From Henricia sp. BOLD:AAB3569 (Eukaryota > Echinodermata > Asteroidea > Spinulosida > Echinasteridae): 64,000 nt of DNA. The position numbers were made by a program, and so were the translations under genes. The notes below the pieces were generated by a model. That model saw nothing but the letters and a program-made list of their open reading frames with translations, was not told the origin of the DNA and did no database searches. The stretch covers positions 62,001 through 126,000 of the forward strand of contig JBBELK010000001.1 of NCBI GenBank assembly GCA_037783545.1, given 5' to 3'. Positions 23,801 to 49,814 of this stretch are shown here, piece by piece; the first letter of the stretch is position 1, and each line of letters opens with the position of its first letter.

Positions 23801-24872
23801 CTTGCAGTTTAACTTGTCAGACTTCACGAGGCGTGCTTATGGTACAAACTACATTGAAACAGTCAGAGTACAGGTAAGATTTATTTTATCATCTTTCTGA
23901 AAATTCTTCTTTAAAATGTTTTGGCTATTAAATAATTAGGGTTTGTTTTGCCCTACTCGACGTCACTTGATTAGCACTGTATACTCAATGCGTCCCCCAG
24001 ACACTGGGGAAAACGTCATAGCGTGCTCGGGTAGGACCCGAACCCACGACCTCCTGCATACAAAGCAGACGTCCTAACCACGCAACCACTGAGCTGGCTG
24101 GTGTTGAGAATCTGGTACAAATAATTTAGCAGCGGGTACTGCAACCCGATCTGTGAATGGAATTTGACTTGTGTCTAAAAATCTTGGCCGCCCGGACAAA
24201 TCTTGGCCGCCCGGTGTAAAGTCAGCAAACATGAGTCGCTGGCTGCTGGCATCATCAATATCTGCGGCGGAGCACAGCCATGACAGCTACAGAGCTGCCA
24301 ACTTTCCCGGATTTAGGTTAATCTCCTGACTTCAGATACATCTATAAATCTCCAAGGTTGTTAATTGACAATACAGGAGGGTTTTCATCTGTGTCGGGAG
24401 CCACAAGATTTCCATGAAATCTGTTGCAAAATCTGGGAGGGTTGGCAGTTCCGCAGCTGCATGTATCTGTTTCGAGCAGTGCCCTCATGCAGTAAACAGG
24501 GATTCAGTGGGTTGGTCAATGTTTGCCGTGTGAGGGCGCTGCTCTGCGTGCCTGGACAAGACAGTGTCCAGTGGAGAACCCTGCTCAGATTCCCAACAGT
24601 TTTACATTAATCTTCTTTCTGAACAAGGCTTAGAACTTTTTTGATTGACCCTCGTAAAAAGCCAGGATATTTTTTATTATTGCAAAAACTGTGTGGTAAT
24701 CAGTGCCTTTGAACTGGCTTCTGATGGTCTTCCGTCTTTTCACCAGATCCACGCCAACTGCAGGATTCGACGTGTCTACTTCTCAGACCGACTATATTCA
24801 GAGGAAGAACTGCCCACGGAATTCAAGCTGTACTTGCCTGTCAACACCAAGGGAGTAGCAGCCGCGAAGTAG
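20895..24872 (+). CDS. CFAP20: Cilia- and flagella-associated protein 20 (CFAP20/BUG22), complete, four exons
   Basis: Inner-junction protein of axonemal doublet microtubules, also found at basal bodies; CFA20/DUF667 domain. Exons: 20895-20978, 22033-22347, 23808-23873, 24747-24872, all phase 0 with AG/GT junctions, giving 196 aa against about 193 in mammals. The N-terminus [20 protein letters not shown] matches the conserved family start, which fixes the ATG at 20895. The long second exon carries [36 protein letters not shown] and the [17 protein letters not shown] core. The last exon holds the conserved [20 protein letters not shown] and a short variable KGVAAAK tail. It is the next gene downstream of CK2 alpha on the same strand. 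An RFX X-box lies 161 bp upstream of the ATG. No frame breaks. Confidence 0.98.
21293..21668 (+). mobile_element. tRNA-derived SINE family 1, full-length copy, CFAP20 intron 1
   Basis: The tRNA-like head GTACCGTGGCCGAGCGGTTT looks tRNA-Leu/Ser-like, with B box GCAGGTTCGAACCTCC. The body contains TTAGGCAAGGCACTCAACCA, CATCCTTCGGAAGGGATGTA and CCTTGGTATGAATACCAGAA, and it ends in (AAT)n. Best copy of at least six in the window. Confidence 0.85.
21679..21815. mobile_element. Palindromic MITE, CFAP20 intron 1
   Basis: TTGTGGAAGCAATGTGCGTG and its complement form the ends, followed by TTGTGTGT/ACACACAA and an inner CGCGTAACGCG hairpin. It lies directly after the SINE tail. Both sit within a wider inverted pair GTCATTTTGGGAGT / ACTCCCAAAATGGC (about 21265 and 21832). 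Confidence 0.75.
22803..23000. mobile_element. Fold-back element, CFAP20 intron 2
   Basis: Left GATACGGGG...TTTAAACTTATTTCAAGTCTGA is mirrored by TCAGACTTTAAATAAGTAT...CCCCGTACC at the right. No coding capacity. Confidence 0.7.
23990..24110 (-). mobile_element. tRNA-derived SINE family 2, copy 2, CFAP20 intron 3
   Basis: Minus strand: CTCAGTGGTTGCGTGGTTAG (A box region), TTTGTATGCAGGAGG, then GTGGGTTCGGGTCCTACCC (B box), followed by GAGCACGCTATGACG. Related to 13715-13840. Confidence 0.7.
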
Positions 24873-31833: not shown

Positions 31834-34800
31834 TTATACCAATGAAGCATCATACACGTAAGTTCTGCATGTATTATTCATCTCAAAGACATTGTCACCA
31901 GGAATGGTCTTGTCAAAAGGTAGAACATTTTTCTTGTCATCTCTGACCTAGAGATTTACAGAAAAGAAGGAAATGTAAAATGGTGTTAATGTGAAAAGTA
32001 CGTATTCCCAAAATAGTGTATTTCGTAAGTTCTGGCTGAGCTGTGAACTCATTTCTAAATAAGGAAATAGAAAAATGCTTCTCTGTTTTGGGGGGTTGCG
32101 TGGGGGCTCGGGGCTGGAAAGACAATTATGACTTTCACTTGCATGTTAATACCTATTATATACCTCATGCGTAGATTCCTGTCATCTGATTGGTTAAAAG
32201 TGGGGGCATTGAATCGGCTAGACCCGGCGCGTATATGCCCACCGGGCAATAGTCTTTGCCATGCCCCGGGCGCGTAATTTTTTTTTACACCGCAGCGAGG
32301 GGTACACCCCAATTTGTCAACCCGAATAGAGTCTAAGTTTCCAATGACTGACACTTCTCGAGTGACAATCTTGGAAATAGTGACAACTCTTACTCTCAGA
32401 AAAAGAAGAAACCGAGAAATTTCGGAAAATCCCAAACATGCATAGATTCGAACCAGGGACCTTATGATTACAAGTCGAGCTCTCTTCTAACCAGACCACG
32501 AAGCTGGTTGCAAACCGACCGCATTCAAAACCCTAAATTCCTTTAAAATAACCAACCCTAAACCCTAACCCTAAACCCTAACCTATTATATAGTCTCCTC
32601 TCAAGACGCTAAAAAGGTACAAACCCCATTGTTCTCCCCTCGCAGTGGTGTAAAAAAAAATTACGCGCCCCGGGCATATTGCAGGTTCCGGACGCGCGCA
32701 TTACATGTGTTAGCATAGCTGTGCTTCACGTAAACATTCATCAGGACGGTAATGGCGGAATCTCGACGTCATTTTGTCGTCTGTCGTAGATGATGAGGTC
32801 CTTAAGAAAGTAAGAGAAGTGGCCTACAGTGAAAACTGTGTTAGGTGAAATGTGCTACTAAAGTGCCAGGTGATTATGCTAACAAATGTTGCTGTTATTA
32901 ATACAACTTTTCCGCCGTAGACCAGCTTCCGAAATCGAAACTCGAAGAACCACTGTCATGACTGTATGATGTAGCCTATCGTTACTTTTAACCAACCAGA
33001 TGACAAAAATCTACACATTCGGTATATAAAACAAATATTGACTGCTGTTTATTCGGGTCATGGTTAAGATTATAGGCCCTCGGTGATCTCGAAGCCATGA
33101 CTATGCCCCTCGGCTTCCGCCTCGGGGCATAGTCATGGCTTCGAGATCACCTTGGGCCTATAATCTTAACCATGCCCCTCATTGCAGTCAATATTTGTAT
33201 ACTATATCCCACCATCATTTTTGTGGTAATTGTTAGAGGAAAATGCACTGGAAACGTTCCCCATTTGGCTTCTATGCAGTGTTAAACGAATTAACCAATG
33301 TATTGCCAAGCAAAGCAGTGAGCATGACTGGGCGAAAGTTCATGTCACATTTTGCTGACGAATTAATTGAGGCTATTTGGTTAACAGGTTGAGCCTACCT
33401 TTTCGACAGCTCTGAAGACCCGGAGTAAATTGCCACCCAGAAGCTTCTTGATATCCTGTTCACTCCAGCCTCGATCATTGATGAGAGCTGCTATCAGATC
33501 AGGGAACTTGGACACGTCCTCCAACCCCGTAGGCAATCTGGTAAGGTCACCATTTGTTAACCAATAAGTCTTGCCCGTCCTCAAATATTTATCATTTACT
33601 AATTGGTTATATGATGACTCAGGATACGATACAAATTGAGTTACTAAAACAAAACCAACTCTGACAGAAATAAAATATATAAAACGTGGTGAATTTGTAA
33701 CCTGCCAAATGTATTCCTGTAGACCTATCTGGTACCATTGAGAAGTTATGACCATTCGAAGAAAGGAGTTGAAGCGTGTTAATTGTTATGGCCGAGGGGA
33801 GTTTTCGAGAAAACTGGTTTATAAATTAATTCTTTGCCATACCACTATAACACTGCACAAATACACTTCAAAATCCTCGTCTTAAACATCTTCCTTGAAG
33901 ATTTGTTTGCAAAATTACACATCTATGTTGAATATTTGGTGTCTGGCTATCAAAAAATGTGGGAAGAAACCCCAAATCGATTTTGACTATTTTTTTTGTA
34001 TTTGGGGACATTCCTCATTTTTGTATTTCCTTTACTTGTGATCTGTTTTAAACATGGCTTCATACAGAGTATGTAACACGTGTGCAACACCCTCGACGCT
34101 CTCCTCCCACACTATCCGGTGTATTGAACACGGAACCTTGCCATTCCTGAGAGTAAATGTCAAAGATATAGTCCTATAAGAGTCAAGCTTGAAAATGCCA
34201 AATAGTGTGTCCTTACGTCCCGACGCCGTCGTAATCAGAACCTAGACCGACAATATAGATCCCCGCTCCGTTGCTGATGTTCCGAATGTGCTCAATGTGC
34301 TCTGCAATGAAAGGAAAAGTGAAATTTAACTTCCATGTAATTCAGTGCCTCAGTATACACGCCTTTTGTTTGCATCAAGTCCAGCGTACAGTTAATAACA
34401 TCAGTTGTGTGAAACGGTTTGGGAAAATGAAACGCATTTGTGCTACAATAGATGGAAATAACAAAAGACTATATAAGTCTTACTCTTTTTATAAACTTAG
34501 AAAGTTACAAAGGTGAAATTATTGCACTGATACCAATTGGTATCAAGACCAATACACTGTACATGTACCTGCGAAGAGCCGTTTGCCAGCATAGGTTTTA
34601 TGTCTTTTGACAATAAAATAAGGTCATAATGACGTTATGTTTTGTTTACATGTGAGCTTTTCATTTCAGCAGAAATTAATAGAGTCAGACGATTTTAGGG
34701 CGCACGGGAGAGCACAAAATATGACGTTATTTAACAAGCCTATTATTTAAAAAAAGAAGTAATTGTACGTTTCCACTCGCTCGCAGTTTCTCACTGTCAA

Positions 34801-37800
34801 ACTGTTCCTGATAAAAATAAAATTAAATTGAAAATAGTTTATTGAGGTTTTTTAATGATTAAAGTCCGCGTTTGTTAAAGTGTGACCCCTTTAAACAAAA
34901 ACATTCCAACGGAATGTTTGCATGGCCTCACCAATGACTTGTTCCAATGTTGCTTCATCTGCATTGCCGGTTTTGTTCATTGGGGGACAGTTTATGTACT
35001 TTGTGTAAAAATTCACCATGACGACCCCCTTGTTAGCTACCTGTTTAGGAGAAAGCATTTACAAAATAAACGAAAATGACATCAATACACATTACCCCTA
35101 ATAGTACTGAACCACCCTGTGAGAGTGAGAGTAGCGAGATTAAGATGGTTTGGGCATGTACAGAGAAAGGATGTGGAGTACAGTGTACCGGTATATCGGG
35201 AATGATGGAGCTGGGAGGCAGGAGGAGAGGAGGAATGCCGGGGAGGAGGATTATGGATGTGGTGAGGGGGACATTCGGGTGGTTAATGGTGTGACAGAGG
35301 AATATGCAGAGGAGGGATGTGGGGTATGTCGGCAGAAGAATGCTTGGAATGGAGCTGGCAGGCAGGATGAGAGGAGGAAGGCCAAGGAGGAGGTTTATGG
35401 ATGTGGTGAGGGGAACATGCTGGTGGTTGGTGTGACAAAGGAAGATGCAGGGAAGGGATGTGGGGTATATCGGGAGAAGAATGGTGGGAATGGAGCTGAC
35501 AGGCAGGAGGAGAAGAGGAATGCCGAGGAGGTTTATGGATGTGGTGAGGGGGACATTCGGGTGGTTAATGGTGTGACAGAGGAATATGCAGAGGAGGGAT
35601 GTGGGGTATGTCGGGAGAAGAATGGTTGGGATGGAGCTGGCAGGCAGGATGAGAGGAGGAAGGCCAAGGAGGAGGTTTATGGGTGTGGTGAGGGGAACAT
35701 GCTGGTGGTTGGTGTGACAAAGGAAGATGCAGGGAAGGGATGTGGGGTATATCGGGAGAAGAATGGTGGGAATGGAGCTGACAGGCAGGAGGAGAAGAGG
35801 AATGCCGAGGAGGTTTATGGATGTGGTGAGGGGGACATTCGGGTGGTTAATGGTGTGACAGAGGAATATGCAGAGGAGGGATGTGGGGTATGTCGGGAGA
35901 AGAATGGTGGGGATAGAGCTGGCAGGCAGGAGGGAGAGGATGAAGGCCAAGGAGGAGGTTTATGGATGTAGTGAGGGGGACATGCGGTGAGGGAGACATG
36001 CGTGTGGTTGGTGTGACAGAGGAATATGCAGAGGAGGGATGTGGGGTATGTCGGGAGAAGAATGCTGGGGATGGAGCTGGCAGGTAGGAGGGGAAGAGGA
36101 AGGCCAATGAGGTTTATGGATGTGGTGAGGGGTGGGGGGTGGCATACGGGTGGTTGGTGTGACAGAGGAAGATGCAGAGAAGGGATGTGGGGTATATCGG
36201 GAGAAGAATGCTGGGGATGGAGCTGGCAGGCAGGAGGACAAGGGAAAGGCCAAGGAGGAAGCTTATTGGTAAGGGGGACGTGCGGGTATGGCGTGACAGA
36301 GAAAGATGCAGAGGACAAAATAAGATGGATAGGGAAGATCTGCTATGGCAACTCCTAACCGGGGACGGATTTCACAAACATGACATTGTGCAGTCATCGC
36401 TACAACGATTGCAAGTAAACAATCCATGGCTGTTGTGATGGCGATGAAACTTGTGTTTCACTAAATCCGTCGCAATCACGATGAGCATTTAGCACTGAAA
36501 ATAATCACAACGGGCGAAGATGATCGCTAGAAGGTCTGGTTGCTTGAGCGTGACTCGCAAATCGGTACAGTTGTAGCATATAGAGGTGGGGAAAAACCAG
36601 CGGCGAAGGTAGACCGTGTTGAATATATAGGGGGTGTGACCATCACGGCGGCGCTTTCGAATAAATGCGATGCCAAACAACGTTTAGACAAATGAAACTG
36701 ATTTTAAGATGTCATTTCTATGCTTATGTACCGATGTCTTAGCGATTAAATTTCAGTCGTCGCAAATAATCCATCGCAAAACAGATGAGCAAATGTTAGT
36801 GAAATCAATCTTTAAAGTACCTTGCGATTATCGCAAGAAGTTAGTGAAATACGCCCCTGAGCTGCCGAAAAAGGGAAGATCTTTTGAGATTACCCGAGGC
36901 TGTGTAAACTATCTAGATAATCTCGGGTAATCTAAAAACCTTACCTCATGGTGGTAAACGGTAGCAAAATAGCACAGTGGAAAGTAGGCTTAAAACTTAC
37001 AATTCGACTTAGAACAGCATCGGGTACATTACGATAGGACCCGCAAATCGAAAAAGCGGAGGAGTGACTGTATATGACCGGAGCTTCGCTTATATCCAAG
37101 ACGTCATTCATTGTTGCCACTGAGGTGTGGGAGAGATCGATTAGCATCCCCAATCGGTTCATCTCCTTGATAACTGTCTGTGGTCAAAGGTCACGGGTAT
37201 AGACAGATATGTATATATTTTTAAATTACATGTATATTCTTAAATTTGTCTGCCAAAAGTGTAAACTCCCACAAGTTCCCTCTTCAAACAGAGCCAGAAC
37301 ATGGTGAGTGCACCTGTAAGTCCCATTGAAAGCTTGATCCCGATTTTCCAGGGCAAATTCAGACCGCCTGGCAGGCCTCCATACTTAGCTAGGGTGTCCC
37401 AGCTAGGCTATTTTGTCCAAGATCGTTGGTGCAACGATACATGGGTCTTTGATCAGTGCAGTGTATAGGGTTAAACACAACCACAGTTCGACCACAGTCC
37501 CTCGAGCAATGGATATCACTCACCGTTCAAGGGACTCGAAACTCGATACAGAACTGCTAAAAACAGAGGAAATACGGTAATCGACTAATGTAATACATCT
37601 GTATTTTATAGGTAATAGTGTACGTAGGCCTGTACCTGTCCAAATTGTGACAAACCATCCAGTTGGGAATCTGTACGCTTCTTGTCCTCTTTCCAATTGT
37701 CGGCCCTAAAACAAATCATATAAGCAACAATTGTGTTCCTTCTTAGAGCAATATGTTGAGCGTATCTTAAAATTACACACGAGTCAATGGAAAGCGATCA

Positions 37801-40800
37801 AGTCATCTTCCTAACGTATATACTTTGACTTGTGAGTAATTTCGGGACGCAACCTTCTGCGCGTTTCGTATGAATAGCATAACGTGCTTCCTTTCACATG
37901 AACACTTCGTATCCATTTGACCAGATTAATTGTTTAAGGGGTGCATGCGGCAGGTGTAAAGTACAGAATCAATACTGTGTTCATCACTGTAGGGGAGAAT
38001 GGCATAAAGCAATGAGACTGTTGGTTGCACGGCAATGGCGTGCACCACGTAGCAACAACAGTATAGTATGTGGACTTGTACAAGGACACACGATCGAAGA
38101 TTATTTGTCCTTGTCTCCACTTTTATTTCTTCCCTTTTATTTCCACTTATTTTTGTTTATTTTTTTACATTCTCAAAGTTTACAATCATCTTGTTTTATA
38201 ATCGTGAGCACAACCAGTACCACTCTTTTTAATTCTTGTTCGACAGCTAAATTGGTTAACACCTAACAGGTCAAAAGCTAACCGAACAAGTAACCTGCCA
38301 CAAAGCCTACTGACAATACAGTGTCATGCCATAAAAAACAGTGTCATTCAAGAGAAACAATTCATGTCAGGCCCACACCAACCGGCCAAGATATATTAGC
38401 CCCTCTGTGTTTTTTAAGCAAACATGTCAAGCCCAAACCAATCAGCCAAAATAGCTCTATCTTGGCCCTCAGTGTCATTCGTTGGAAACAATCTGTGTCA
38501 AGCCCGAACCAACCAGCCAAAATAACTTCATCCCTCAGTGTCGATCGTTCGGGGAAACAATTTATGTCAATTAAGAAACACGCAGCTCCACAGCAAAGGC
38601 ATGGAGCTGCGTATTTCGTGGCACGAATTAGGCGCGCGCGCATTGCTGACGAGCCTGTGCCTTTAATCCTCTGTTATTAGAGGGAAAACAATTTATGTCA
38701 AGCCCAAACCAACCAGCCAAAATCCCGCTGGACGTTTTTGGGCGATTATTTGTGTCAGGCCCAAACCAACTACATATGTAACTAGTTTACATAATTGTCA
38801 GCCCTCTATGACCAACGTGTTCAAGCCCCACTATGACCAACGTGTCTGTGTCCATGGGCAAGGCACTTAATCTCAGTTGCCTCGTCAACCCAAGCGATAT
38901 TACCCGCAGACCAGCCCGCCGGCCAGCCCGTACCACAGTCCGCGCCAAAGCCTGCACCACGGTCCGCTCATAATTTCGGAAGCGGTTTTGGAAACCCCCG
39001 TTTGACAAAGCGTTAAAAAGATTCACAAACCTACCCACTGTGTCTGTGCATTGATACATTGTACGTGCGTTGTGTACGTATGTTTTGGATGTTATTTGGA
39101 CACGTGACTTACCAAGGCGTGTTGCAGCTATGTGTGATAGTCATGTACCGAGTGCCTAGCTCATAGAGCATGCGCAGTACGGCGAGATTGCTGTCAATGT
39201 TGTGACCTCCTTCGACCCCAATCAAAGATGCGATTTTGCCCTTGCTGTGAGCATCCACGATGCCTGAAATAAAGAAAAACAGAGCTGTGATACGGAGTTT
39301 ATACGAAGTGCCGTCCAACTTGTTGAGATTCCGTGATAATTTATCACAAGATGACAACATATTCAGTGCAAAATGTCGTCATCCATTGATGATTATCTCA
39401 GGAAGACAACATACAGAATGTAGAATGACGACATATCGAGATAATTATCACGGAATTATAAAACCTGATGACGATATCATCATCAAAGGGTGCCATCGAG
39501 TCGCGTACGACTCCTGACGACTCTGTGGCCAAGCTCCCTCCAGGCCGCATGATCTTCTGCAGTCCTGACCAGTTCTGATAGAGTTAAGTTTGTTGATTCA
39601 GTTATTCCTGACACCCATCTGGTTCTTTGTCGACCCCTTCTTGTCCCTCCGGTCCTTCCTAGTATGAATGATTTCTCCACGAACTGCCATTGTGACGCAT
39701 GCAATGTCCAAAGTAGAGTAGCTGGGACTTGACAACCCGTGCTTCCAAAGGAAGCGAGGGTTTTGCCAGATGCAGGACCGTGCTGTTGGACATTATTTCG
39801 GTCCACGGAATTCTCAGCATACGACGCCAGCACCACATCCCAAAAGCATCGATGCGTCGCTTGTCCGCTTTCTTGATTGTCCAGCTTTCTGCGCCATACA
39901 GGAACACGGGGGAAACCAGAGTCTCCACCATCTTCACCTTGGTCCCAAGACTTATTCGCCATCCTTCATCATACCTAAGTCACAATTAAAGCGGAGGCCG
40001 GGCGGCGTGTGCGATTGATAGGCATCGGCCGGCGTGTAGAGGTCGGCGAAAGATCGCGCGATTGGGCGGTCACAGTCACAATTAAAAGTGCCCCGCACGC
40101 TGCCATGACGGAATGGGGTCGATTTCTTGGCCCGTTTATCGGCCGGTGTCCGGCAGGCACTCGTCCGATGTCCTGCCGATGTCCTGCCTATGTCACTGCG
40201 ATACCCCAGCCGATATCTGGCCGATTTCCGGCCGGGCGCCGCCAAGTCGGCCGGACGCCGGGCAGGGCCCGGCCGGCGTCTGAGCGGCGTCTGGGCGGCG
40301 CCTGGGCGGCGCCTGGCCGATATATGGATTGTCTGGGTTGTCAAAAAATTTGCCCGGAGCCCGCCCGATGTGTGCGATGCCCTGCCGGATATCGGCCAGT
40401 CATCGACCGATTTATTGGCGATCAGTTTGCGATGCGAAACGCCGCACCAGGTTTTAAGTCCGAGTTAAAAGTAACTCGATGCCCGCGCGATGCCAAAAAA
40501 TGACCCGGCAGCCGCAAGGAGTCCCGTGGGGCCCCGGCCGAAAATGCCTAGAAATCCGTCGCAAACTACTCGCAAACCCATCGCAAGCTAATTGTGACTG
40601 GGGTATTAGTGGTGATAACTTGGTCATGGCAGCCCGGCCTATAGAGTTATGCGCCTACGGATCTCCTTAGAGCAGTCACTGTCCCTGTTTATGCCTAAGT
40701 CACATTTCCAAGGGGTCCCGGGGGCGATGTAGCCGATCTAGGCCCCGGCCGGGCTCTGAAGTCGGGGGTGCCGGCCGATTCTCACAGCCCGGCCGGGCAG

Positions 40801-43800
40801 CTGTAGGGTCCCTGTCGAGTTCCTTTTATCCCCTGCAGGCTGGGCCACGCTCGGTGCCGGCCGGCGCCCGTGAACCCGGCCGGGGCCCCGCCGATGTCTA
40901 ATCGGCGTCCGGCACGTGCCCGGCCGGGCCCCGGCCGGCGCCTGCCCGATATAAACATCGTCTGTGTCGTCACAAATTTGGCACGGGGCCCGCCCGATGT
41001 AGCAGGTGCCCGGCCTGGCACCGGCGGGGACCCTGTCGATGTTTTTACGATTAGGTTACGGCTTGGATCCGGCTTGTATTTTTCGCCGGACCCCGAGTTG
41101 ATTTTAAGTGCGAATTAAAATGAACCGGGGGCCCGCCCGAAGCAAAAAATAGCCCGGTATAGCCGCCCGAAAGTGCCAAAAAACAGCCCCTAAACTACCC
41201 GGGAAGACATCGGTTTGGAAATGTGACTGGGGTATTACCACAGCTCCCAGGAAGACAAAGTCGCTGACTACCTCTATTTCATGGGATGACGGCATAAAGA
41301 ACTTATGATGACATTCTAAGATAATTTATCATAGGATGATGACATCCACAATGTAGGATGGCGACAAACTGAGATAATTTATCACAGGATGACGACATCT
41401 ATAACGTACGATGACGACATCCCGGGAAAATGTCTGTGGTATATAGGTCTAAGGACCTTTTGTTCGTCTGAAATATAGGCTAATGGAGCTGCGTATTTTG
41501 TGGCACGAGTTTGGCGCGTGCGCATTGCTGACGAGCCTGTGCCTTTAAGGCCGTTTCTACTGAAAGGATGCCGTTTCCGAAGTGTTTCGGAAACGGTTTA
41601 AATTGAACGCAAAAGGATATTCATTCGAATACTTTGTAATACCGATATTTGGTATCGATTTGAAGTACCAATAGCGAGCTATCGAACAATAAGTCGATAC
41701 CGATACTACTGGTTTCGGAGTATTGAGTATCGAAATGTCACCTACCGTCGGCTGTAGTGACAAACTGAAAATCGTCCGGGTACTTGTCGCACATACGTTT
41801 GATGACGTCAATCTGTTCCAGAATGTGTAGAATAGAATCTTTGTACTCCGATGCGCACCTTGTGTAGGCAGCCCAAAACTACAAAAAGGATAGGATGAAA
41901 ATGTAATAACTCATAGTAAGTTTCATGTCATTGGCGGATACACACTATCGCGAAAAAATCACACTTTCGCGCTGCGCTCACCGCATTGCATGAGCTCCCA
42001 ATCGCCGAATATTCCAAAATAGAAAATTCCACTCTGGTAACTTGGGGCTTCTCTGATACCTCATTGGCTGCGCGTTGGAAAGGTCAGCGCACCGCGGTCA
42101 AAGTTCAACAAATTTGAACTTTGACCCAGCTCAAAACGTTTTGCACGGCGCGATAGGCCGCGCACAAGCGGAAAACCAGTTTGTGTACAAACCAATGGCA
42201 CAGTGTGATTTTTCCGCGATAGTGTGAACTCCCCTTTAGACTTTTTGGTATGACTCACTTCTCCTAGTTCGCACGCACCATTATGCACGTATACTGGCAA
42301 TGCGAAGAATGTGTGGATTGGATACATTCAGTGTGAACGTGCTATAATGCGCGTTTCGCATGAATAGCATCGGGTGTACTGGCGTATGTCCTTCTACATA
42401 CGCATGTATGGTTAGGGCCATTGATCGCAATCATGGATGAAAACTTGGGGTTGCGGGTTCGAATCCGGCTGCGGTACCTGTGCCCTTGGGCAAGGCACTC
42501 AACCACACTTGCTCCATCCTTCGGAAGGGATGTAAAGCCGTTGGTCCAGTGTGTTAGGTAATGGTAACGCACTCTAAAGATCCCAGAGCATTCTTTCGTG
42601 AAGAGCAAGGGGATTAATTCCCCGGTGTCTCTGGCCATTTCTAATTCTAATTCTTCATGGGTTTCCTTACGCTTACGAGTGACAGTGCAATGAGCACTAT
42701 TGAGGAATCCTTGGTATGAATACCAGAAAGAAATAATAATAATAAAATAATAATGACCAGACTAAGTGTTTGTTGCTATGTGGTGCACGCGGTAGGTACG
42801 AAGTACAGAAGCAACACCGTGTTCACCGTATGAGAGAATGGCATAAAACAGCCAAACTGTTGGTTGCTAGGTAACGGCGTGCACCGTGTAGCAACAACAG
42901 CATAGTATGTTGAATTTCTAATCTGCACCTCAATTAAAAATTGATTACATCCGTAGCGTCATCCTTTATGCAAATGTTACACGCAAAACGCTTATTCTCA
43001 CAATTGACGCCATAGACTAATAAAGTGTGACGTCAGTTGCTATATGGTAACTGGTTCTTAACATTCGCTGGTAATCAGGAAAACAGTTCACTTGTAAACA
43101 TATTAAACATCGGCAACACACAACTTGGCTGATTCATGACTCGGCTTTGTAGCAATAGACAGCCGAAGTGTGACGTGGTTGCCATGGCAATTGGCTCTAA
43201 ACTATCATGGCCGTCATATATAAAAAAAAAGTACTTTTGCAAAAGCACAGGGGCGCGGTTCAGTGATGGCCGTCATATAAAAAAAAGTACTTTTGCAAAA
43301 GCACAGGGGCGCGGTTCAGTGATGGCCGTCATATAAAAAAAAGTACTTTTGCAAAAGCACAGGGGCGGGGTTCAGTGATTTGTTTTTAGTATAGAGCTAA
43401 TTGCCTATAGGCAACCAACAAAAGATGACGTATTTACTTCGGAAGTCTATTGAGGTTCGAAAGTAATGATGTTGGGCCTGTCCATAAGAAACATTAATAT
43501 GCATGCAATCCACCAATCAGAAAGCAAGAAAGGATCAGTAGCCCCACCCACCTGACCTCCGACCATGCCCTGCCGCAGTCGCGGTATGTCAGTGTGTAGT
43601 GATGTCGACCCGCTGAGGTTAGACCCGAGATCGATCCGTCCGAGTTGGTTGTTGTATAGCTTTTTCAGTTGCCATGGTAAATCGTTATGCCTGGACAAAA
43701 TAAAAGCTGTACGTGTAAAAATTGGTTCCGGGCATGGCTTTAAAGCCGTGTAAAATGGTACCTTTTTGGTGGGAGAAATTGCCAACTGAAGGTGCATTAA

Positions 43801-46800
43801 AAAAAAGTTGTCTTCAGACAATATTATTGAATGGAATGCTGTTGTTCCTGTTTTTGACGGTAGAACGCATGATTGGTAAACTGTTAAAAGGGGCTTTATT
43901 TCCACTAATGATTAGAAGCCCATGTTGATAAAACTGCTCGTGGACATTTCAGCCACATAGGTGCAATAATACTTGAGTTCTTAAAGCTAGAAAAATCCAT
44001 GCATGGTTTTTGTGTTGTCAATGAGTTAAATGGTAAAAAAGTCTTTTGCAAAAGACCTTTTAAAAAATAAATAAAACCACCTTCAGTTTTTAATTTCTTA
44101 CACAAAATACCATTTTGGACTGAAATAAAATCACGTGGTGTTTGGTACCATTGTTATTAACACTTGTAGTATAGGTTTTTCTTGTCAACTGCATGGTAGG
44201 GAAAACATGGGGTCACTGCAAATGATGTACGCTACCTTTAAGTTTCCCAGTGATGTAATCTGTCTTTAAACTGCGCCAGGCGACAATAATAATACTACGT
44301 GTAAAAATGTCCTACAATTTGTCCTTAATAACTTCTTTGTTTCTAAAAACAGTCAAATTTCTTGACCATATACAACCAATATATGTCAAATTTTGTGAAT
44401 GAGTTTCGAGACGAAACAATTATGGATTAGTGACAGAGTAACATGCCAGTGGCCAGCTCGTTCCTCCGACCTACCCTAGCCATGGACCAGAGCCGCGGCA
44501 TCCAGGCCGTTCTAGCATTGAGGCACGAGTGGGTAAAGCCCGCCGCACACGTGAGGTCGTTTGCTGAGCAAACGGTCATTCGTGGCCGTTTGCTCAGCAC
44601 TTGGCTCACGTGTGCGGTGGCTATTTTGCTGCATTTCTTGCCTCGCGAGGCCGTGAGCCAAAAATGAATGTAGCTGGCCAATCAAAACCACGCGCGCGAT
44701 ACGAAAACAGCGCGCGCACGCGAACCCCGCCAAGGTCACCACACTTTAGCAAAAGTTTGGTGACCTTAGCGGTGCCCGCGCGCACTGTATTCATATCACG
44801 TGAATATGGGGATGGTTTTTAATTGGCCAGCTACATTTATTTTAGCTCAGCACTTGGCTCATCACCCCCGCACACGGTGAGATTTTGGCCACGCGAGGCA
44901 AAAAATATCAAACACGTTAGATATTTGGCTCACGGCCTCGCGAGGCAAAAAACGCAGCAAAATTTCACCGGCACCGCACACGTGAGCCAAGTGCTGAGCA
45001 AACGGCCACGAATGACCGTTTGCTCAGCAAACGACCTCACGTGTGCGGCGGGCTGTGACAGATGAATTCTGGTTAAGTGCCTTGCTCAAGGGCACATGTA
45101 CCACGATCAAGGTTCGAACCCACAACACCAAGTATTCACCCAAGTGTTGCGAATCAACGACCGTAACCACTCGACATAGGCCAACCCATCATATCTTCAT
45201 AATGATTTGGTGCACTTGTTGCATTTTGTTTGTTTACTAAAGTTGTACATTACCTTCAAACAGTGAAACAAAACCCAATATATTTGTTTACTGTTGAAGT
45301 TTTTTTTTTCGTGCAGCGCTATTGTTTGTTACTGGGAGTTTTTTAACATTATCTTTCAATTGTTTGTTGTAATGATTTAATCTTGTCAAAATGCGAGCAA
45401 TACTAAAACCCTTTACGGTTTTATCAAGTTTGAATGTTGATTGTGGGTTATTTACACCCAGATATAGCACCAATAAAGATATCGGCAATAAACTGGAGTG
45501 GGTGCTAAGTATATAGGTGTAAAACTTCCCCCATGCCGACAGGACCTGCGAATCTCTTGCACGGCAACGGGACACTTGCATCTAGCAAAAAAGTAACGCT
45601 CAGGTCACAAAAGTATATGGATAAATATGTGAATGAGTTGAAATGGTATCAAAACAGTGACAGAGTACATGTATTTATTCGCTTTCACGCACGCTAAGTC
45701 CTTCACATGGCGGCAGAGGAAGCCGGTCCCAGTCCGTCGGTTTGTGCACAAGTCAAATATTTCTTCTGTTTTCCTCAGTCTTTAAAACTTTTGGGGCCGT
45801 TTTTGCTATTCCTTGTATTAAGTTCTTCTCAGTCAAGGAGAAAAAGGTGGAAACTGCAGTGTTTTCAATGGTTTGCCACAATTTCACGTGTAATATTAGG
45901 GAGGTTTCGGTCGCATACGGTTAGGCAAAACGACGACTATTAGTGAATTTTACGTCATCGATTTGTGCGTATATACTTAAGGCGTTTACACAAATATCCC
46001 AAGTGTTGTTTTGTTGTTTACACTGATAGCAACGCCTCTACACCTTAGTAAAAAACGGACAACGAAAGGTAACGATTTTGAGGTTTGGCTAATCGTAGTC
46101 GTAATCACTAATACCCCCGTCAGACCGGATTGGCGGTGCCACTACGGTTTTTGGTCAAAACCGCCATCAACGTAGTGACACCGACAGTAGTTTTTTATGG
46201 TTTTCCCCTACCCGTCACACATGTGTTTTTCTTCGCGGTGCTACTGTCGATCTGAACTGTTTGAAGACTTTTAGAACACTGAAATTGAAGCAGAAAACCG
46301 AAGCTTTTATACTACAAAATATGCCCGCAGTAGCACCGTGCAAGCACATCAGTGCTAAACCTTAAGTGGTCCGTCATCGCGAGGTGACTAAGAAATTCCT
46401 GCCGAAACTCGCAACTCACTCGCAAGTATAGTCGTATACAAATGTCGTACAAAATTATGTCGCCGCATTTCGGCGTCCCTGAAAAAAACTGCCGATTTGC
46501 GCCGACATACTACGATCGACATCGAACCCCGATTTGCTATACGACCTCAGTGGAAACGCCATTGCCGTACAAGCGCCTCAATAACACCGCCGGCACCGCC
46601 GTAGTAACACAGTGGCACCGCAGTAAGATCGCCAAATTTTCTAAAATTCCTTCCTGGCTCCGCAGTGGCACCCCCATACCCGCAGTGCTACCGTGGTAGC
46701 ACCGCCATAACCGCAGTAGAACCGCCACGGGATCGCCGTAGGGTCGCCAGTCTACTTTTTCGGCGATTGCACGGCGGTTGTACTGCGGGAGGCACGGCGG

Positions 46801-47567
46801 CGATGGAGGTGCTACTGCGGTCCTTGTAAAGTCCCACGGCGGTCATGGCGGTGCCGCGGCGATCCCACTGCGGATTGGCCCAACCCGCGGAGCACTGCGG
46901 AAGTTTTAAACATGTTCAAAGTTTCCGCCGTGCCACCGCGAAGGTCCGCGGTTTTGACAGTTTTCCGCAGTGCTACGGCGATCAATGGCGGAACCACTGC
47001 GGAACCACGGCGGAACCACGGCGATCATGGCGGTGCCACTGCGGTTTATGCCGTACAAGCACCGCAGTGCATGGCACCGCGCCTCCGGTGTGACGGGGGT
47101 ATAACCGTGCACACCGAAACCTCACTATTGTCTCCTTACTTTTTATTGGTGGGTATCAAAAGTGACATTACACAAACGCAAAAAAAAGAATTGAAAATGT
47201 AAAATAGGTTGTTTCGTTTTGATTTTAAATCACAATTAACATGATTAACACGTGCAATGTCTTATTAGTGTAACAATCCTGAGTATATTGCAAAGAATGA
47301 GCCTGAATTGACTGACCATTACAGGGCTCATTAAATTGGTTATTTAGCAGATGTTGGCAAGAGTATTGTCAGGGCTTACCCGTCTATAAGGGGCGTCTCC
47401 TTCATATACCGACGGGCGAGATCCATGCTCGTAGGGGTCGTCCCGATTGTCTCGGTATCAGACTCCCGATTGCTGAGAGCTACAGGCACCGCGATAGCCA
47501 CGGCCACAAGTACAACCAGAATCGCTCCCACCAAGATGCCGATGTAGTGTTTCCTAGTTAGATCCAT
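31834..47567 (-). CDS. DPEP: Membrane dipeptidase (renal dipeptidase family), complete, ten exons
   Basis: Zinc-dependent ectopeptidase of family M19, hydrolysing dipeptides such as Cys-Gly. Exons 5' to 3' on the minus strand: 47567-47380, 43690-43552, 41878-41746, 39263-39113, 37705-37636, 37177-37001, 35040-34932, 34301-34217, 33537-33399, 31947-31834. Lengths sum to 1305 nt (434 aa plus stop) and every junction keeps phase. Residues 9-32 form a hydrophobic segment behind a short KH-containing N-terminus, read as a signal-anchor. Metal ligands are intact: LIDGHNDLPW (His, Asp), [11 protein letters not shown] (Glu), [10 protein letters not shown] (His), VIYSHSSA (His). The substrate-site Asp of GSDYDGV is also present. 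The C-terminus ends [14 protein letters not shown], with the family CRT motif but no hydrophobic GPI tail. Introns are full of transposons; intron 1 is 3.7 kb. A near-identical paralogue lies upstream on the same strand. Confidence 0.95.
32261..32677. mobile_element. Inverted-repeat element D1 carrying a tRNA-like sequence
   Basis: The ends GCCC(C)GGGCGCGTAATTTTTTTT, then ACACC and GCGAGGGG, are mirrored over roughly 40 bp. Inside, the minus strand at 32510-32438 has TCGTGGTCTGGTTAGAAGAG (A box) and CCTGGTTCGAATC (B box) at tRNA spacing. A telomere-like CCCTAA array lies at 32551-32583. Same terminal motif as D2 at 48952. It lies about 310 bp beyond the first exon met on leaving the dipeptidase stop, within its last intron. 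Confidence 0.7.
32551..32583. repeat. Interstitial telomere-like CCCTAA(A) repeats
   Basis: Alternating CCCTAAA and CCCTAA, about five units. They are embedded in element D1 next to its tRNA-like sequence, not at a chromosome end as far as the window shows. Confidence 0.8.
33022..33208. mobile_element. Nearly perfect palindromic element in dipeptidase last intron
   Basis: TATTGACTGC...GGTTAAGATTATAGGCCC...GATCTCGAAGCCATGACTA is mirrored around 33120. The inner arms (about 60 bp) are almost without mismatch, suggesting recent origin or ongoing homogenisation. Confidence 0.85.
35109..36357 (+). repeat. LINE reverse-transcriptase C-terminal tail amplified as a 141-bp tandem array
   Basis: The left edge reads [20 protein letters not shown], the well-known C-terminal stretch of a non-LTR retrotransposon protein. 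The following module, [15 protein letters not shown]...RGRPRR...[10 protein letters not shown] in the native frame, then repeats. Copies of GGATGTGGGGTAT (GGATGTGGAGTAC in the first) start at 35169, 35315, 35456, 35597, 35738, 35879, 36037 and 36182. The period is mostly 141 bp, with a higher-order 282-bp dimer. The right edge ends in a KDAEDKIRW...-like terminus. It lies in dipeptidase intron 6. Because 141 is a multiple of three, long open frames arise on both strands; they are not genes. Confidence 0.8.
36356..36862. mobile_element. Inverted-repeat element with GGGGACGGATTTCAC ends
   Basis: GGGGACGGATTTCACAAAC and TTAGTGAAATACGCCCC are mirrored ends, with TCGCAA-rich interior repeats. It sits next to the LINE-tail array in dipeptidase intron 6. 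Confidence 0.5.
38360..38775 (+). repeat. Degenerate minisatellite interrupted by a fold-back MITE
   Basis: TCAAGCCCAAACCAACCAGC-type units recur near 38367, 38427, 38498, 38698 and 38755, with CAATTTATGTCAA linkers. The TTAA element 38571-38666 is inserted in a linker. Confidence 0.6.
38571..38666. mobile_element. Fold-back MITE, TTAA family, copy 4 (left arm shortened)
   Basis: The right arm is complete, ending GAGCCTGTGCCTTTAA. The left arm starts directly with AACACGCAGCTCC after a TTAA, so the outer part of that arm is missing. It is inserted in a degenerate minisatellite in dipeptidase intron 4. Confidence 0.7.
39320..39480. repeat. GATGACGACAT minisatellite, left block
   Basis: GATGACGACAT-like motifs alternate with GATAATTTATCACAGG blocks. 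The same repeat continues at 41300-41430 beyond the retrotransposon relic, which therefore split the array or seeded from it. Confidence 0.65.
39974..40605. mobile_element. GC-rich TWA-target element A (PIF/Harbinger-like, non-autonomous)
   Basis: Inverted ends TACCTAAGTCACAATTA and its partner TACCCCAGTCACAATTA (two mismatches). Flanks are TCA and TTA, a worn TWA duplication. The interior is far more GC-rich than the surroundings and full of GGCCGGGC-type short repeats. No transposase frame. Inserted in the RTE relic. Confidence 0.7.
40694..41233. mobile_element. GC-rich TWA-target element B (PIF/Harbinger-like, non-autonomous)
   Basis: Inverted ends of about 20 bp, TGCCTAAGTCACATTTCCAA and TACCCCAGTCACATTTCCAA, with exact TTA duplications outside. 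The interior again consists of GGCCGGGGCC-like repeats. Deleting B and one TTA rejoins the RTE reading frame. Confidence 0.75.
41300..41430. repeat. GATGACGACAT minisatellite, right block
   Basis: GATAATTTATCACAGGATGA, CGACATC and AATGTAGGATGGCGACA units of about 46 bp, matching the block at 39320-39480. Confidence 0.65.
41483..41548. mobile_element. Fold-back MITE, TTAA family, half copy 5
   Basis: Only the right arm remains, from ATGGAGCTGCGTATTTTG to GAGCCTGTGCCTTTAA. It lies in dipeptidase intron 3. Confidence 0.7.
41939..42229. mobile_element. MITE with ACACTATCGCGAAAAA ends
   Basis: ACACTATCGCGAAAAAATCA at the left is mirrored by TGATTTTTCCGCGATAGTGT at the right. It starts about 60 bp upstream of dipeptidase exon 3 in transcript direction. 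Confidence 0.8.
42411..42751 (+). mobile_element. tRNA-derived SINE family 1, copy inserted in another repeat
   Basis: The head is 5'-shortened, starting near GGGCCATTGATCGCAATCAT. B box GCGGGTTCGAATCC, the full body and an (AAT)n tail are present. Flanking sequences match the unbroken repeat at 37870-38070. Confidence 0.8.
43203..43378 (+). repeat. Three tandem copies of a 60-bp unit
   Basis: Units contain GATGGCCGTCATAT, a poly-A run, AAGTACTTTTGCAAAAGCAC and GGGGCGCGGTTCA. Copies are almost identical, so the expansion is recent. Confidence 0.9.
43725..44225 (+). repeat. Dispersed repeat, second copy of the 20160 family
   Basis: Contains TTTCAGCCACATAG, CATGCATGGTTTTTGTGT, TTTAAAAAATAAATAAA and TTTTTCTTGTCAACTG in the order seen near 20210-20410. 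It starts about 35 bp outside dipeptidase exon 2. Confidence 0.55.
44535..45055. mobile_element. Fold-back element with CACGTG-rich 84-bp arms
   Basis: Arms begin AAGCCCGCCGCACACGTGAG and continue CGTTTGCTGAGCAAACGGTC, mirrored at 44973-45054 with very few differences. GCTCACG(g)CCTCGCGAGGC lies further in. It is split by the nested element 44667-44837. Several CACGTG (E-box) sites result. Confidence 0.8.
44667..44837. mobile_element. Element nested inside the 44535-45055 fold-back
   Basis: Ends AATGTAGCTGGCCAATCAAA and its near complement. The interior has GCGCGCG runs and a small AAGGTCACCA...TGGTGACCTT hairpin. Being nested, it is younger than its host element. Confidence 0.7.
45069..45180 (-). 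mobile_element. tRNA-derived SINE family 1, 5' part, minus strand
   Basis: On the minus strand it reads GTCGAGTGGTTACGGTCGTT, TTCGCAACACTTGGGTGAAT, GTGGGTTCGAACCTTG and TTGAGCAAGGCACTTAACCA. The rest of the body is missing. Confidence 0.7.
46112..47101. mobile_element. GC-rich TWA-target element C (PIF/Harbinger-like, non-autonomous)
   Basis: The ends TACCCCCGTCAGACCGGA and TACCCCCGTCACACCGGA are inverted. TAA duplications lie at 46109-46111 and 47102-47104. The interior is built of GCGGTGCCACTGCGG/ACCGCCGTAG-like short repeats. An unoccupied paralogous site is at 51425. A segment 46371-46555 recurs at 50037-50220. It lies in intron 1 of the complete dipeptidase. Confidence 0.8.
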
Positions 47568-48511
47568 TCTGGACTGCTGGCAAAGGCTCGGTTCTTTCCG
47601 AATATACTCAGTTTGTGTTAAACCACTTGCTTTATTTGTTCTAATGGCGTCGAAAGCTCAGCGTTAACTTTGCGCAAGTTCACGTACTCAAAGAGGGACA
47701 AAGTTTAATATTTTATGGCCAGTTACTAATCGTGCACTTCTTGCATTTGAAATGGGAGTTACTATTCCATTATTTTGTTACCATCGCAAAATGAATTATG
47801 GCGCTTTTTGGCTTTTAATGTAAATATCTGACTTCGAATTATACGGTAAAAAACCCCGCAAATCATACTCTGACCTAAAGATCGAGGAGGCTGATAGATG
47901 TGTCTTATTTTATCAGTCAGTAACCTGTATGAACACCTCTTGGAAAAAGGCTTATTGCAACAGCCTCAGTAAGAGCCGCCGAGGCAGTGTGCGCCACTCT
48001 GTGCCTAAAGTGCTCATGAGAACCTGCACTTTTTTAAGACGCGCGGATCAAGAGGTCAGCTCTACTCACGCAGGTTTAATCATGTTAAAATCCAAACAAA
48101 AACAGTTTCCCGTGAACCTACAGAATTCTTAAAGAAATACGAAATGTCACATTACATTGCAGTGGGAAATACTTTGTTCAAACAGGGCGAAACCACTAAA
48201 GCAGAACCGCTAAGCAATTCCAAAGTCGATCAGTGCCTTCTTATCTATAAGTAAACTGTATTCAGCAAACATCTGTTCTGATCAATAATTGATATTTTGG
48301 GAGAATAGACCACTTTATATACGTCAATTGCCAGGGTAAATGAGTCTCAACGTCCATTGCTAAAACACAGGGAAACAATTTACTGGTTTTCATATGCAGC
48401 ACGATATGTGGCAGAGGGTATCCCCCTACCATTGTTCCCCCATTGTGTCTCAAACATCCAAGGAATTCCTTTCAGTTTTTAGGGGCTCTGGTGGTGGTGG
48501 TTAATGCCTTA

Positions 48512-49814
48512 TGCTACGTTTACACCATGTCCCCGGCAGTCCCGGCGCCCCGGTTTGGCCAAAACGTAGCGTGCCGTGGAACTTTTGTCGTCTTTTTATT
48601 ACTTTGGCTCGACTCGGCCCTAGTTGGGCCGGTGTGTTGCGTTCTACCACGGTGCGTTACGTCCCGGTACGTAAAGCGTGGCGCGCCGTGCCGGTTCCGG
48701 GCCGCGAGGCGGACGGCGCGCTACGTTTTAAGCGCCGTTCCACTACGGATGGGTCCACGTCCCATGCCGGCCTGCTAAGTTCTGATGCGGTGCCTCACGT
48801 CCGTCCCGTTCGTGTCACGTTTGTTGTCCCGGCCCAATACGTTCCCGACGGTGTGCGAGGGTCTGCTGCGGCGCCCTGCGACTGAACGTGGCAGCTGTCA
48901 TGTTTCACGCCCCGGTGGTCATCACCCGGTGGTCTCCCGGTGAGCCCCGGTTGCGTAATTTTTTTTCCCAGGATGGTAAAGGCCATTGAGAATATTCTCT
49001 GCTTTTGATTGGTGCACTGTAAATGAATATTCATATTTTCTATATAGCGCCCTCAAGAGTTATTAAATAAAAGGGATATAAGAAAGAAAATTTAAGGGTT
49101 TGTCGAGTCGTTTGGTAGTCTAGTGGTTAAGACGTGGGACTATTAATCGAGAGATTGTGGGTTCGAATCTCCTCTCTCGTAGTTTTTTCTTCATTAATTG
49201 AGGAAAGACTTATAGTCTAACTCTCGAACACGCAGCTGTGTTAAGTGACAGCTATCAACAAAACACTTCAGTATGCAATATATGCATGTGGTTAGGCCAA
49301 TCAGGAGCAATCTTCCCTTAACCATCCTGGGAAAAAAAATTACGCGCCCCGGTTGGTATAAATAGTGCGCTCCACACCTTCATTTTCACTTCGTCCTGGA
49401 GCTCGACGCAGTGAGGCGTAACTGGCCGTGAGCAACAACCGTCACACACCTTGGCGCACCGCAGTTTACCAGGCCGCATTCACACCATGCTGTGGCCGCT
49501 ACCGTGTCGGGCCCTGGCAGACCGTGGGGTGCCGGGCTTCCAAACGCGGCGGAGCGCGAGGCACCGGCCGCGATCAGAGTTCCCCGGCACCCCAAGGTGC
49601 CACACCCCGGTGAGTCAAGGCACACTGCGGTCCGTCACGCCCTGTGACGGAAGCCCCGTCCCACTGCGGCCCAGGACGATTCTCAAGGGTGAGCTACGGT
49701 CATTCACGTTTCGCCACCCCGGTCCCCTACGCTCCCCGACGTCCATCCCGGTGCCTCCACGGTGCTCCTCTACCGGGGCGCCGGGACTGCCGGGGACATG
49801 GTGTAAACGTAGCA
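48512..49814. mobile_element. 1.3-kb TWA-target element with 43-bp perfect inverted ends
   Basis: Ends begin TGCTACGTTTACACCATGTC and are identical over about 43 bp. TTA duplications lie at 48509-48511 and 49815-49817. The interior is GC-rich with CCCGG/CCGCGG-type repeats and no credible transposase. Element D2 is nested within. The surrounding repeat R at 9210-9390 shows the empty site. Confidence 0.85.
48952..49346. mobile_element. Inverted-repeat element D2 carrying a tRNA-like sequence, nested
   Basis: Ends GCGTAATTTTTTTTCCCAGG(ATGGT) are mirrored. On the plus strand 49105-49181 has TGGTAGTCTAGTGGTTAAGA (A box) and TGTGGGTTCGAATCTCC (B box) with a partial GAGAGA/TCTCTC stem. It shares the GCGTAATTTTTTTT terminus with D1 but little interior. 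Confidence 0.7.

Follow-up and report, generated by a model that had tools for sequence, protein, structure and literature searches.

In tRNA-derived short interspersed elements (SINEs), which carry internal A and B boxes, the transcript runs to the tail; the elements close with a 3' tail or an end like that of a long interspersed element (LINE) and are flanked by duplications of variable length. In Foldback (FB/TU) elements, inverted repeats form most of the element. Miniature inverted-repeat transposable elements (MITEs) are short and non-coding, with terminal inverted repeats, a target duplication of fixed length and many homogeneous copies. Insertions of maize Mu (RescueMu) are marked by 9-bp duplications with a strong G/C bias at a dyad-symmetric target (PMC545602), and Dada transposons, which lack terminal inverted repeats, lie inside tRNA genes and make duplications of 6-7 bp (PMC3706591, PMC8869645). 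Here we describe two elements, D1 and D2, in a 64,000-nucleotide stretch of the genome of the sea star Henricia sp. BOLD:AAB3569 (contig JBBELK010000001.1, positions 62,001 to 126,000; hereafter the window). Both enclose a tRNA-like core between inverted ends. We consider it likely that they represent two MITE families with a tRNA-derived centre, moved in trans by one transposase that cuts GC-rich palindromes and is probably that of a Mutator-like element (MULE).

The terminal sequence GCGTAATTTTTTTT has four exact matches in the window, which form two inverted pairs, at 32272/32666 (D1) and 48953/49345 (D2). The count alone is weak evidence: with up to two mismatches there are five matches against a shuffle mean of 1.83, and 5 of 100 shuffles reach five. 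The weight of the observation therefore lies in the pairing and in the 9-bp duplications on either side of each element (Table 1). Our first inverted-repeat lengths took in target sequence; once the duplication was trimmed, the arms measured 31 bp in D1 and 30 bp in D2, the terminal inverted repeats of a MITE. Since arms of about 30 bp enclose some 333 bp, neither element belongs with Foldback, and the label 'fold-back element' given in an earlier first-pass annotation does not apply in its strict sense. A scan of the whole window for inverted repeats (minimum length 12 bp, spacing 60-4000 bp) accompanied by a direct duplication of 8-10 bp recovered D1 and D2, along with two palindromes regarded as artefacts, and nothing else. 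No open reading frame (ORF) of at least 150 amino acids overlaps either element. The anatomy of D1 and D2 is that of a DNA transposon.

The likeness between the two elements is confined to the outer 14 nt and the tRNA-like part. Each has A and B boxes whose starts are separated by 44 nt; they read on the minus strand in D1 and on the plus strand in D2, and the internal promoter boxes of a tRNA-derived SINE are present. The similarity of the tRNA-like parts exceeds chance (none of 500 shuffles did as well); compared in matching orientation, the sequences flanking the core show none beyond that of shuffles (260/500 and 66/500 did as well). The first-pass annotation had described a shared terminus around A and B boxes at tRNA spacing, in opposite orientations and with little else alike, and the GCGTAATTTTTTTT pairs, the 44-nt spacing and the shuffles bear this out. 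The score of the D2 core against the Rfam tRNA model falls short of the gathering cut-off of 29 bits (23.6 bits); one D2 copy elsewhere in the genome (locus L037) exceeds it with 32.4 bits, and the D1 core has no match to the model up to E 10. Near the D1 core, within the element, lie mixed TTAGGG/TTTAGGG telomere-like repeats (window 32551-32583).

Copies were sought in the assembly from which the window is drawn (740.7 Mb, 2104 contigs). First-look candidates numbered 1234 for D1 and 1177 for D2, of which 40 each were scored, and hence these are not verified copy numbers; the best 40 rows per family showed near end-to-end coverage at 96-100% identity. Our sample comprised 79 copies, 39 of D1 and 40 of D2, all fetched via similarity to one or the other: 38 of the best 40 D1 places, all 40 D2 places and a second D1 copy in L008. 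BLAST pieces shorter than about 360 bp were left out, including an older D1 copy in L089 that is broken by a further MITE-like element, whose ends are TGACGGGCT / AGCCCGTCA (L089:177-482). The assembly contains duplicated stretches; contig C490, for example, has three D1 places spaced about 343 kb from one another. Copy length, as given by the end-finding script, was 383-410 bp; the window copy and the consensus span 395-403 bp in D1 and 393-395 bp in D2. An exact 9-bp duplication flanks 67 of the 79 copies, and 71 have one with at most one mismatch. The remaining eight are the tandem D1 pair in L008, L080 (two mismatches), L088, where the script apparently misplaced the element ends, and the D2 copies L013, L017, L018 and L105. 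Target duplications of a fixed length, here 9 bp, and short, non-coding, homogeneous copies in large number are features of MITEs. D1 and D2 are unusual but recognisable short non-autonomous transposons, not the undescribed element type that the first-pass annotation had proposed. Its account of the ends was correct as to the inverted pairs; it overlooked the exact duplications, and the symmetric D1 end turned out to be a minority form, with TTACGC at the far side in 2 of 39 D1 copies and CACGC in most others.

The duplicated target is sharply defined. Over 54 sites differing in flank it follows the motif NNCCSGGNN, with position 4 always C and position 6 always G (54/54 each), C or G at position 5 in 51, C at position 3 in 35 and G at position 7 in 38; as background, CNG makes up 4.7% of the window. 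The target of the D2 copy L012 is the same 9-mer as the end of the element that interrupts the D1 copy in L089, and D2 may have inserted there.

The core travels with the element. GGTTCGANNC is present in 78 of the 79 copies (39/39 D1, 39/40 D2), and an exact A box-44 nt-B box arrangement in 75 (37/39 D1, 38/40 D2); in 78 (39/39 D1, 39/40 D2), a run of at least four T follows the B box at a distance of no more than 30 nt. No direct repeat of at least 8 bp brackets the core and there is no tail. A comparison of the element interiors with fetched sequence totalling about 362 kb gave matches to element copies and their relatives only, besides two at chance level (E 0.095 and 0.33). These observations support the view that the tRNA-like part is built into an inverted-repeat DNA transposon as a passenger and is not an inserted SINE.

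The same arrangement is found in a third family, D3, of which we have one copy. Its A and B boxes are again 44 nt apart, and a T6 run lies 32 nt behind the B-box start. D3 is a diverged relative of D2: with gaps left out, identity is 0.89 in the core, 0.90 in the left flank and 0.84 in the right flank, and the alignment has 9, 59 and 29 gap columns, respectively. A D1 copy sits in the duplicated target of D3, shifted by one base, giving the order target-D3-target-D1-target. The presence of the core in D3 as well as in the D1 and D2 copies agrees with the suggestion of the first-pass annotation that it is integral cargo of an inverted-repeat transposon. A scan of 346 kb of fetched sequence for GCGT ends with 9-bp duplications returned only the window's D1 and D2; it skipped the short copy loci L068-L107 and required GCGT ends, which placed D3 outside its reach. 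One D3-type end in L052, with neither a partner nor a D3 match, was taken as chance.

Table 1. Positions of the elements and their parts; coordinates are those of the window unless a contig is named.
Feature	Position	Strand	Details
D1 element	32272..32666	-	395 bp MITE; tRNA-like core on minus strand
D1 left target duplication	32263..32271	.	9 bp, GCCCCGGGC
D1 right target duplication	32667..32675	.	9 bp, GCCCCGGGC
D1 inverted terminal arm, left	32272..32302	+	
D1 inverted terminal arm, right	32636..32666	-	
D1 A box	32487..32498	-	TGGTCTGGTTAG
D1 B box	32445..32454	-	GGTTCGAATC; 44 nt from A box start
D1 first T4 run behind B box	32426..32429	-	candidate Pol III terminator
D2 element	48953..49345	+	393 bp MITE; tRNA-like core on plus strand
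D2 left target duplication	48944..48952	.	9 bp, GCCCCGGTT
D2 right target duplication	49346..49354	.	9 bp, GCCCCGGTT
D2 inverted terminal arm, left	48953..48982	+	
D2 inverted terminal arm, right	49316..49345	-	
D2 tRNA-like core	49115..49174	+	Rfam tRNA model alignment, 23.6 bits, model 7-64 of 71
D2 A box	49116..49126	+	TAGTCTAGTGG
D2 B box	49160..49169	+	GGTTCGAATC
D2 T6 run behind B box	49183..49188	+	family consensus T7; candidate Pol III terminator
D3 element	contig C311, beside D1 copy		327 bp; ends GCGATATTTTTTTCCG; exact 9-bp duplication TACCCGGGT

We propose that one transposase would move D1 and D2 in trans, cutting the GC-rich palindromic target NNCCSGGNN and leaving 9-bp duplications. 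A degenerate tRNA gene, together with a terminator-like T-run, would have been taken in when the miniature elements formed, and since then DNA transposition of the element as a whole, rather than retroposition, would have copied the core. Movement in trans, a single transposase, kinship with MULEs and the capture of tRNA genes are the steps that we infer within this explanation.

As to the source, the elements share with MULEs a 9-bp G/C-rich duplication; this fits MULEs best and points to a system that is probably MULE-like. Merlin elements duplicate 8-9 bp, which is compatible with the 9 bp seen here. The genome transposase matches listed comprised 19 P-like, 19 MULE and 20 Merlin. For the P-like matches, 19 short loci and 6 wider stretches contained neither GCGTAATTT end pairs nor an inverted-repeat-plus-duplication pair. 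The 2 of 20 Merlin matches that were read had no such end pairs; of the 2 of 19 MULE matches read, L111 has quite different, GGTCGTTTCGTACCCAAGT-type ends and in L110 none were recognised. The MULE transposase match in L111 (1709-4081) lies between inverted repeats GGTCGTTTCGTACCCAAGT, doubled on the left. The P superfamily was set aside on the grounds of its duplication, about 8 bp (PMC3706591) compared with 9 bp here, and of the missing matching ends. Dada is ruled out by the inverted ends and the 9-bp duplication of D1 and D2.

The insertion sites of the two families overlap. D1 (L006) and D2 (L014, L025/L026, L035/L036) occupy an identical TTCCCGGCG/CGCCGGGAA site in a tandem monomer of about 297 bp; the D2 copies there face either way, those in L035/L036 opposite to those in L014 and L025/L026. 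This satellite, with a monomer of about 280-300 bp (297 in L025), hosts D1/D2 insertions in L006, L013, L014, L022, L025 and L035. Several D2 copies are associated with tRNA genes. The copy in L102 splits a tRNA-Ser gene with an exact duplication, TCCCCGCGC, and the joined flanks yield a tRNA-Ser(TGA) that ARAGORN accepts; in L017/L018, two places with identical flanks, D2 splits another tRNA-Ser gene without a clean duplication. Those in L015/L016 lie within a tRNA-Val array, and L027 and L031/L034 adjoin the B box of a tRNA-like repeat. Loci L015, L016, L017 and L018 are dense tandem tRNA arrays, with 12 tRNA-Val or 17 tRNA-Ser genes per 3.4 kb. For D1, no tRNA gene was present in 8 loci with 1.5-kb flanks, and none was interrupted by or adjoined the element at 38 junctions (the two L008 copies shared one entry). 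Targeting of tRNA genes cannot be claimed from a small sample with many duplicated loci, and the GC-rich motif may be enough to account for these sites. Maize Mu lies close to rRNA and tRNA genes at about the same frequency as random loci (PMC7337890).

How, then, did a tRNA-like sequence come to lie between these ends, and could they have captured true SINEs, that is, retroposons inserted in an older, shorter MITE? The A and B boxes stand at SINE spacing and SINE-like repeats occur in the same window (for example at about 42456), as this option of the first-pass annotation would have it. However, the core lacks bracketing repeats of at least 8 bp and a tail, the B box is closely followed by a T-run (78 of 79 copies have it at no more than 30 nt), and the interiors found only element copies and relatives above chance level in the fetched sequence; we judge SINE capture very improbable. 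Nor are the tRNA-like parts separate SINE insertions with duplications of their own, since no such direct repeat brackets them. Hardly credible at all is the related idea that the terminal T8 run serves as RNA polymerase III (Pol III) terminator of the internal promoter. T-runs are indeed present at the ends of the copies examined, interrupted at the far end in part of the D1 copies. However, they face inward: the downstream end of the sense strand reads AAAAAAAATTACGC, so that an outgoing transcript meets an A-run and the terminal T-runs are unable to end the element's own transcript, and 78 of 79 copies already have a run of at least four T no more than 30 nt beyond the B box. At most, the terminal runs could stop transcripts entering from outside. 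Whether the D1 and D2 cores have one origin or two is a closer question. They were compared with 16 vertebrate tRNA genes, which are not those of this species, and with four sequences of this genome. Among these, the D1 core is nearest to Thr-AGT (z 9.9) and Tyr-GTA (z 9.6) and the D2 core to Arg-TCG (z 12.8), then Thr-AGT (z 10.1); the two cores score z 5.2 against each other, below the best tRNAs of each. The different best matches favour separate captures, perhaps of one tRNA gene in D1 and another in D2. Alternatively, both might descend from one tRNA-bearing ancestor, with all but the ends and core having drifted past recognition. This history, which we regard as possible though somewhat doubtful, would account for the same outer 14 nt and for a core likeness beyond 500 shuffles; it is opposed by the cores themselves, each of which has several tRNAs closer to it than its counterpart, the best ones differing, and by flanks without similarity beyond shuffles in matching orientation. 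Two points in its favour also weigh against our own explanation, as do two further ones. The cores lie at nearly the same place (A box at 169 compared with 164) in elements of near-equal length, which is odd for independent captures; Thr-AGT is the top match of the D1 core and the second of the D2 core, such that a single common tRNA source is possible. Additionally, all sampled copies were retrieved through their similarity to D1 or D2 and the presence of the core is partly built in; the sample demonstrates that core and element move together and does not imply a core in every element with such ends. Finally, no autonomous copy was found, and there were no GCGTAATTT ends in the P-like, MULE and Merlin stretches read.

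We take the tRNA-derived, promoter-like core of D1 and D2 to be a passenger. It might instead be a working module, a Pol III promoter that aids spread and was recruited or kept in several families, acting through binding of TFIIIC/TFIIIB, through open chromatin or by steering insertion to other Pol III genes. We think this unlikely, although a case can be made: the core is found in three families (D1, D2 and D3) with an A-B spacing of 44 throughout and a T4-T6 run behind, it is similarly placed in D1 and D2, and some D2 copies lie in tRNA-Ser genes (L102; L017/L018) or the tRNA-Val array (L015/L016). The boxes also deviate little from consensus, with means of 0.0024 and 0.0026 in D1 against 0.0105 for the whole element, and of 0.0046 and 0.0051 in D2 against 0.0083, figures that count copies and carry no significance test. 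However, variable sites are not depleted in the A and B boxes of D1 (2/23 vs 41/316, p 0.42) or of D2 (2/23 vs 33/308, p 0.55), the core is no more alike between D2 and D3 than the left flank (0.89 and 0.90), though it has fewer gaps, and no tRNA gene was seen at the D1 loci or junctions described above. Slightly less likely again is the bolder proposition that one transposase system repeatedly captured different tRNAs and depends on a Pol III/TFIIIC platform for spread or target choice.

Among described systems, D1 and D2 are most like MITEs, especially those derived from MULEs: they are under 600 bp, have no long ORF, carry inverted ends of about 30 bp and a GC-rich, fixed-length duplication of 9 bp, and exist in many homogeneous copies. 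They differ in the tRNA-derived core at mid-element, shared by D3, and in the strict C-S-G centre of the target. With tRNA-derived SINEs (SINE2) they share A and B boxes at tRNA spacing in a short repeat; the inverted ends, fixed 9-bp duplications, lack of a tail and T-run near the core (at least T4 within 30 nt of the B box) set them apart, and an assignment to that class was rejected. Dada offers a parallel in DNA transposons inside tRNA genes (PMC3706591, PMC8869645), whereas D1 and D2 have inverted ends and 9-bp duplications, and only some D2 insertions lie in tRNA genes. The likeness to maize Mu (PMC545602) is one of duplication and target only, in length, strong G/C bias and dyad symmetry; kinship of the transposases would be a further step. 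What is new here is MITE families with a tRNA-derived core. In the open-licence literature, judged mainly from listings, we recognised no description of tRNA-bearing MITEs, of this terminal sequence or of such 9-bp GC-rich targets.

If the core is a passenger, DNA transposons can spread many tRNA-like promoters (more than 1000 first-look candidates per family, unverified), and repeat annotation could misfile such elements as SINEs. The elements also supply a sharply defined 9-bp target, NNCCSGGNN. Should the promoter have a role, D1 and D2 would represent, among class II elements, the equivalent of those retroelements that put the Pol III machinery to their own use.

Some further features were seen in passing. 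The window holds a SINE-like repeat at 42395-42600, in which a TGTGCCCTTGGGCAAGGCACT stretch comes after A and B boxes, a tRNA-Thr(TGT)-like sequence on the minus strand at 24023-24095 (32.5 against the Rfam tRNA cut-off of 29), and a 287-bp inverted-repeat pair at 44650-44936 with the palindrome CCTCGCGAGG on its flanks. In L042 (4530-4719), two histone 3' untranslated region stem-loops in opposite orientation suggest a histone gene cluster.

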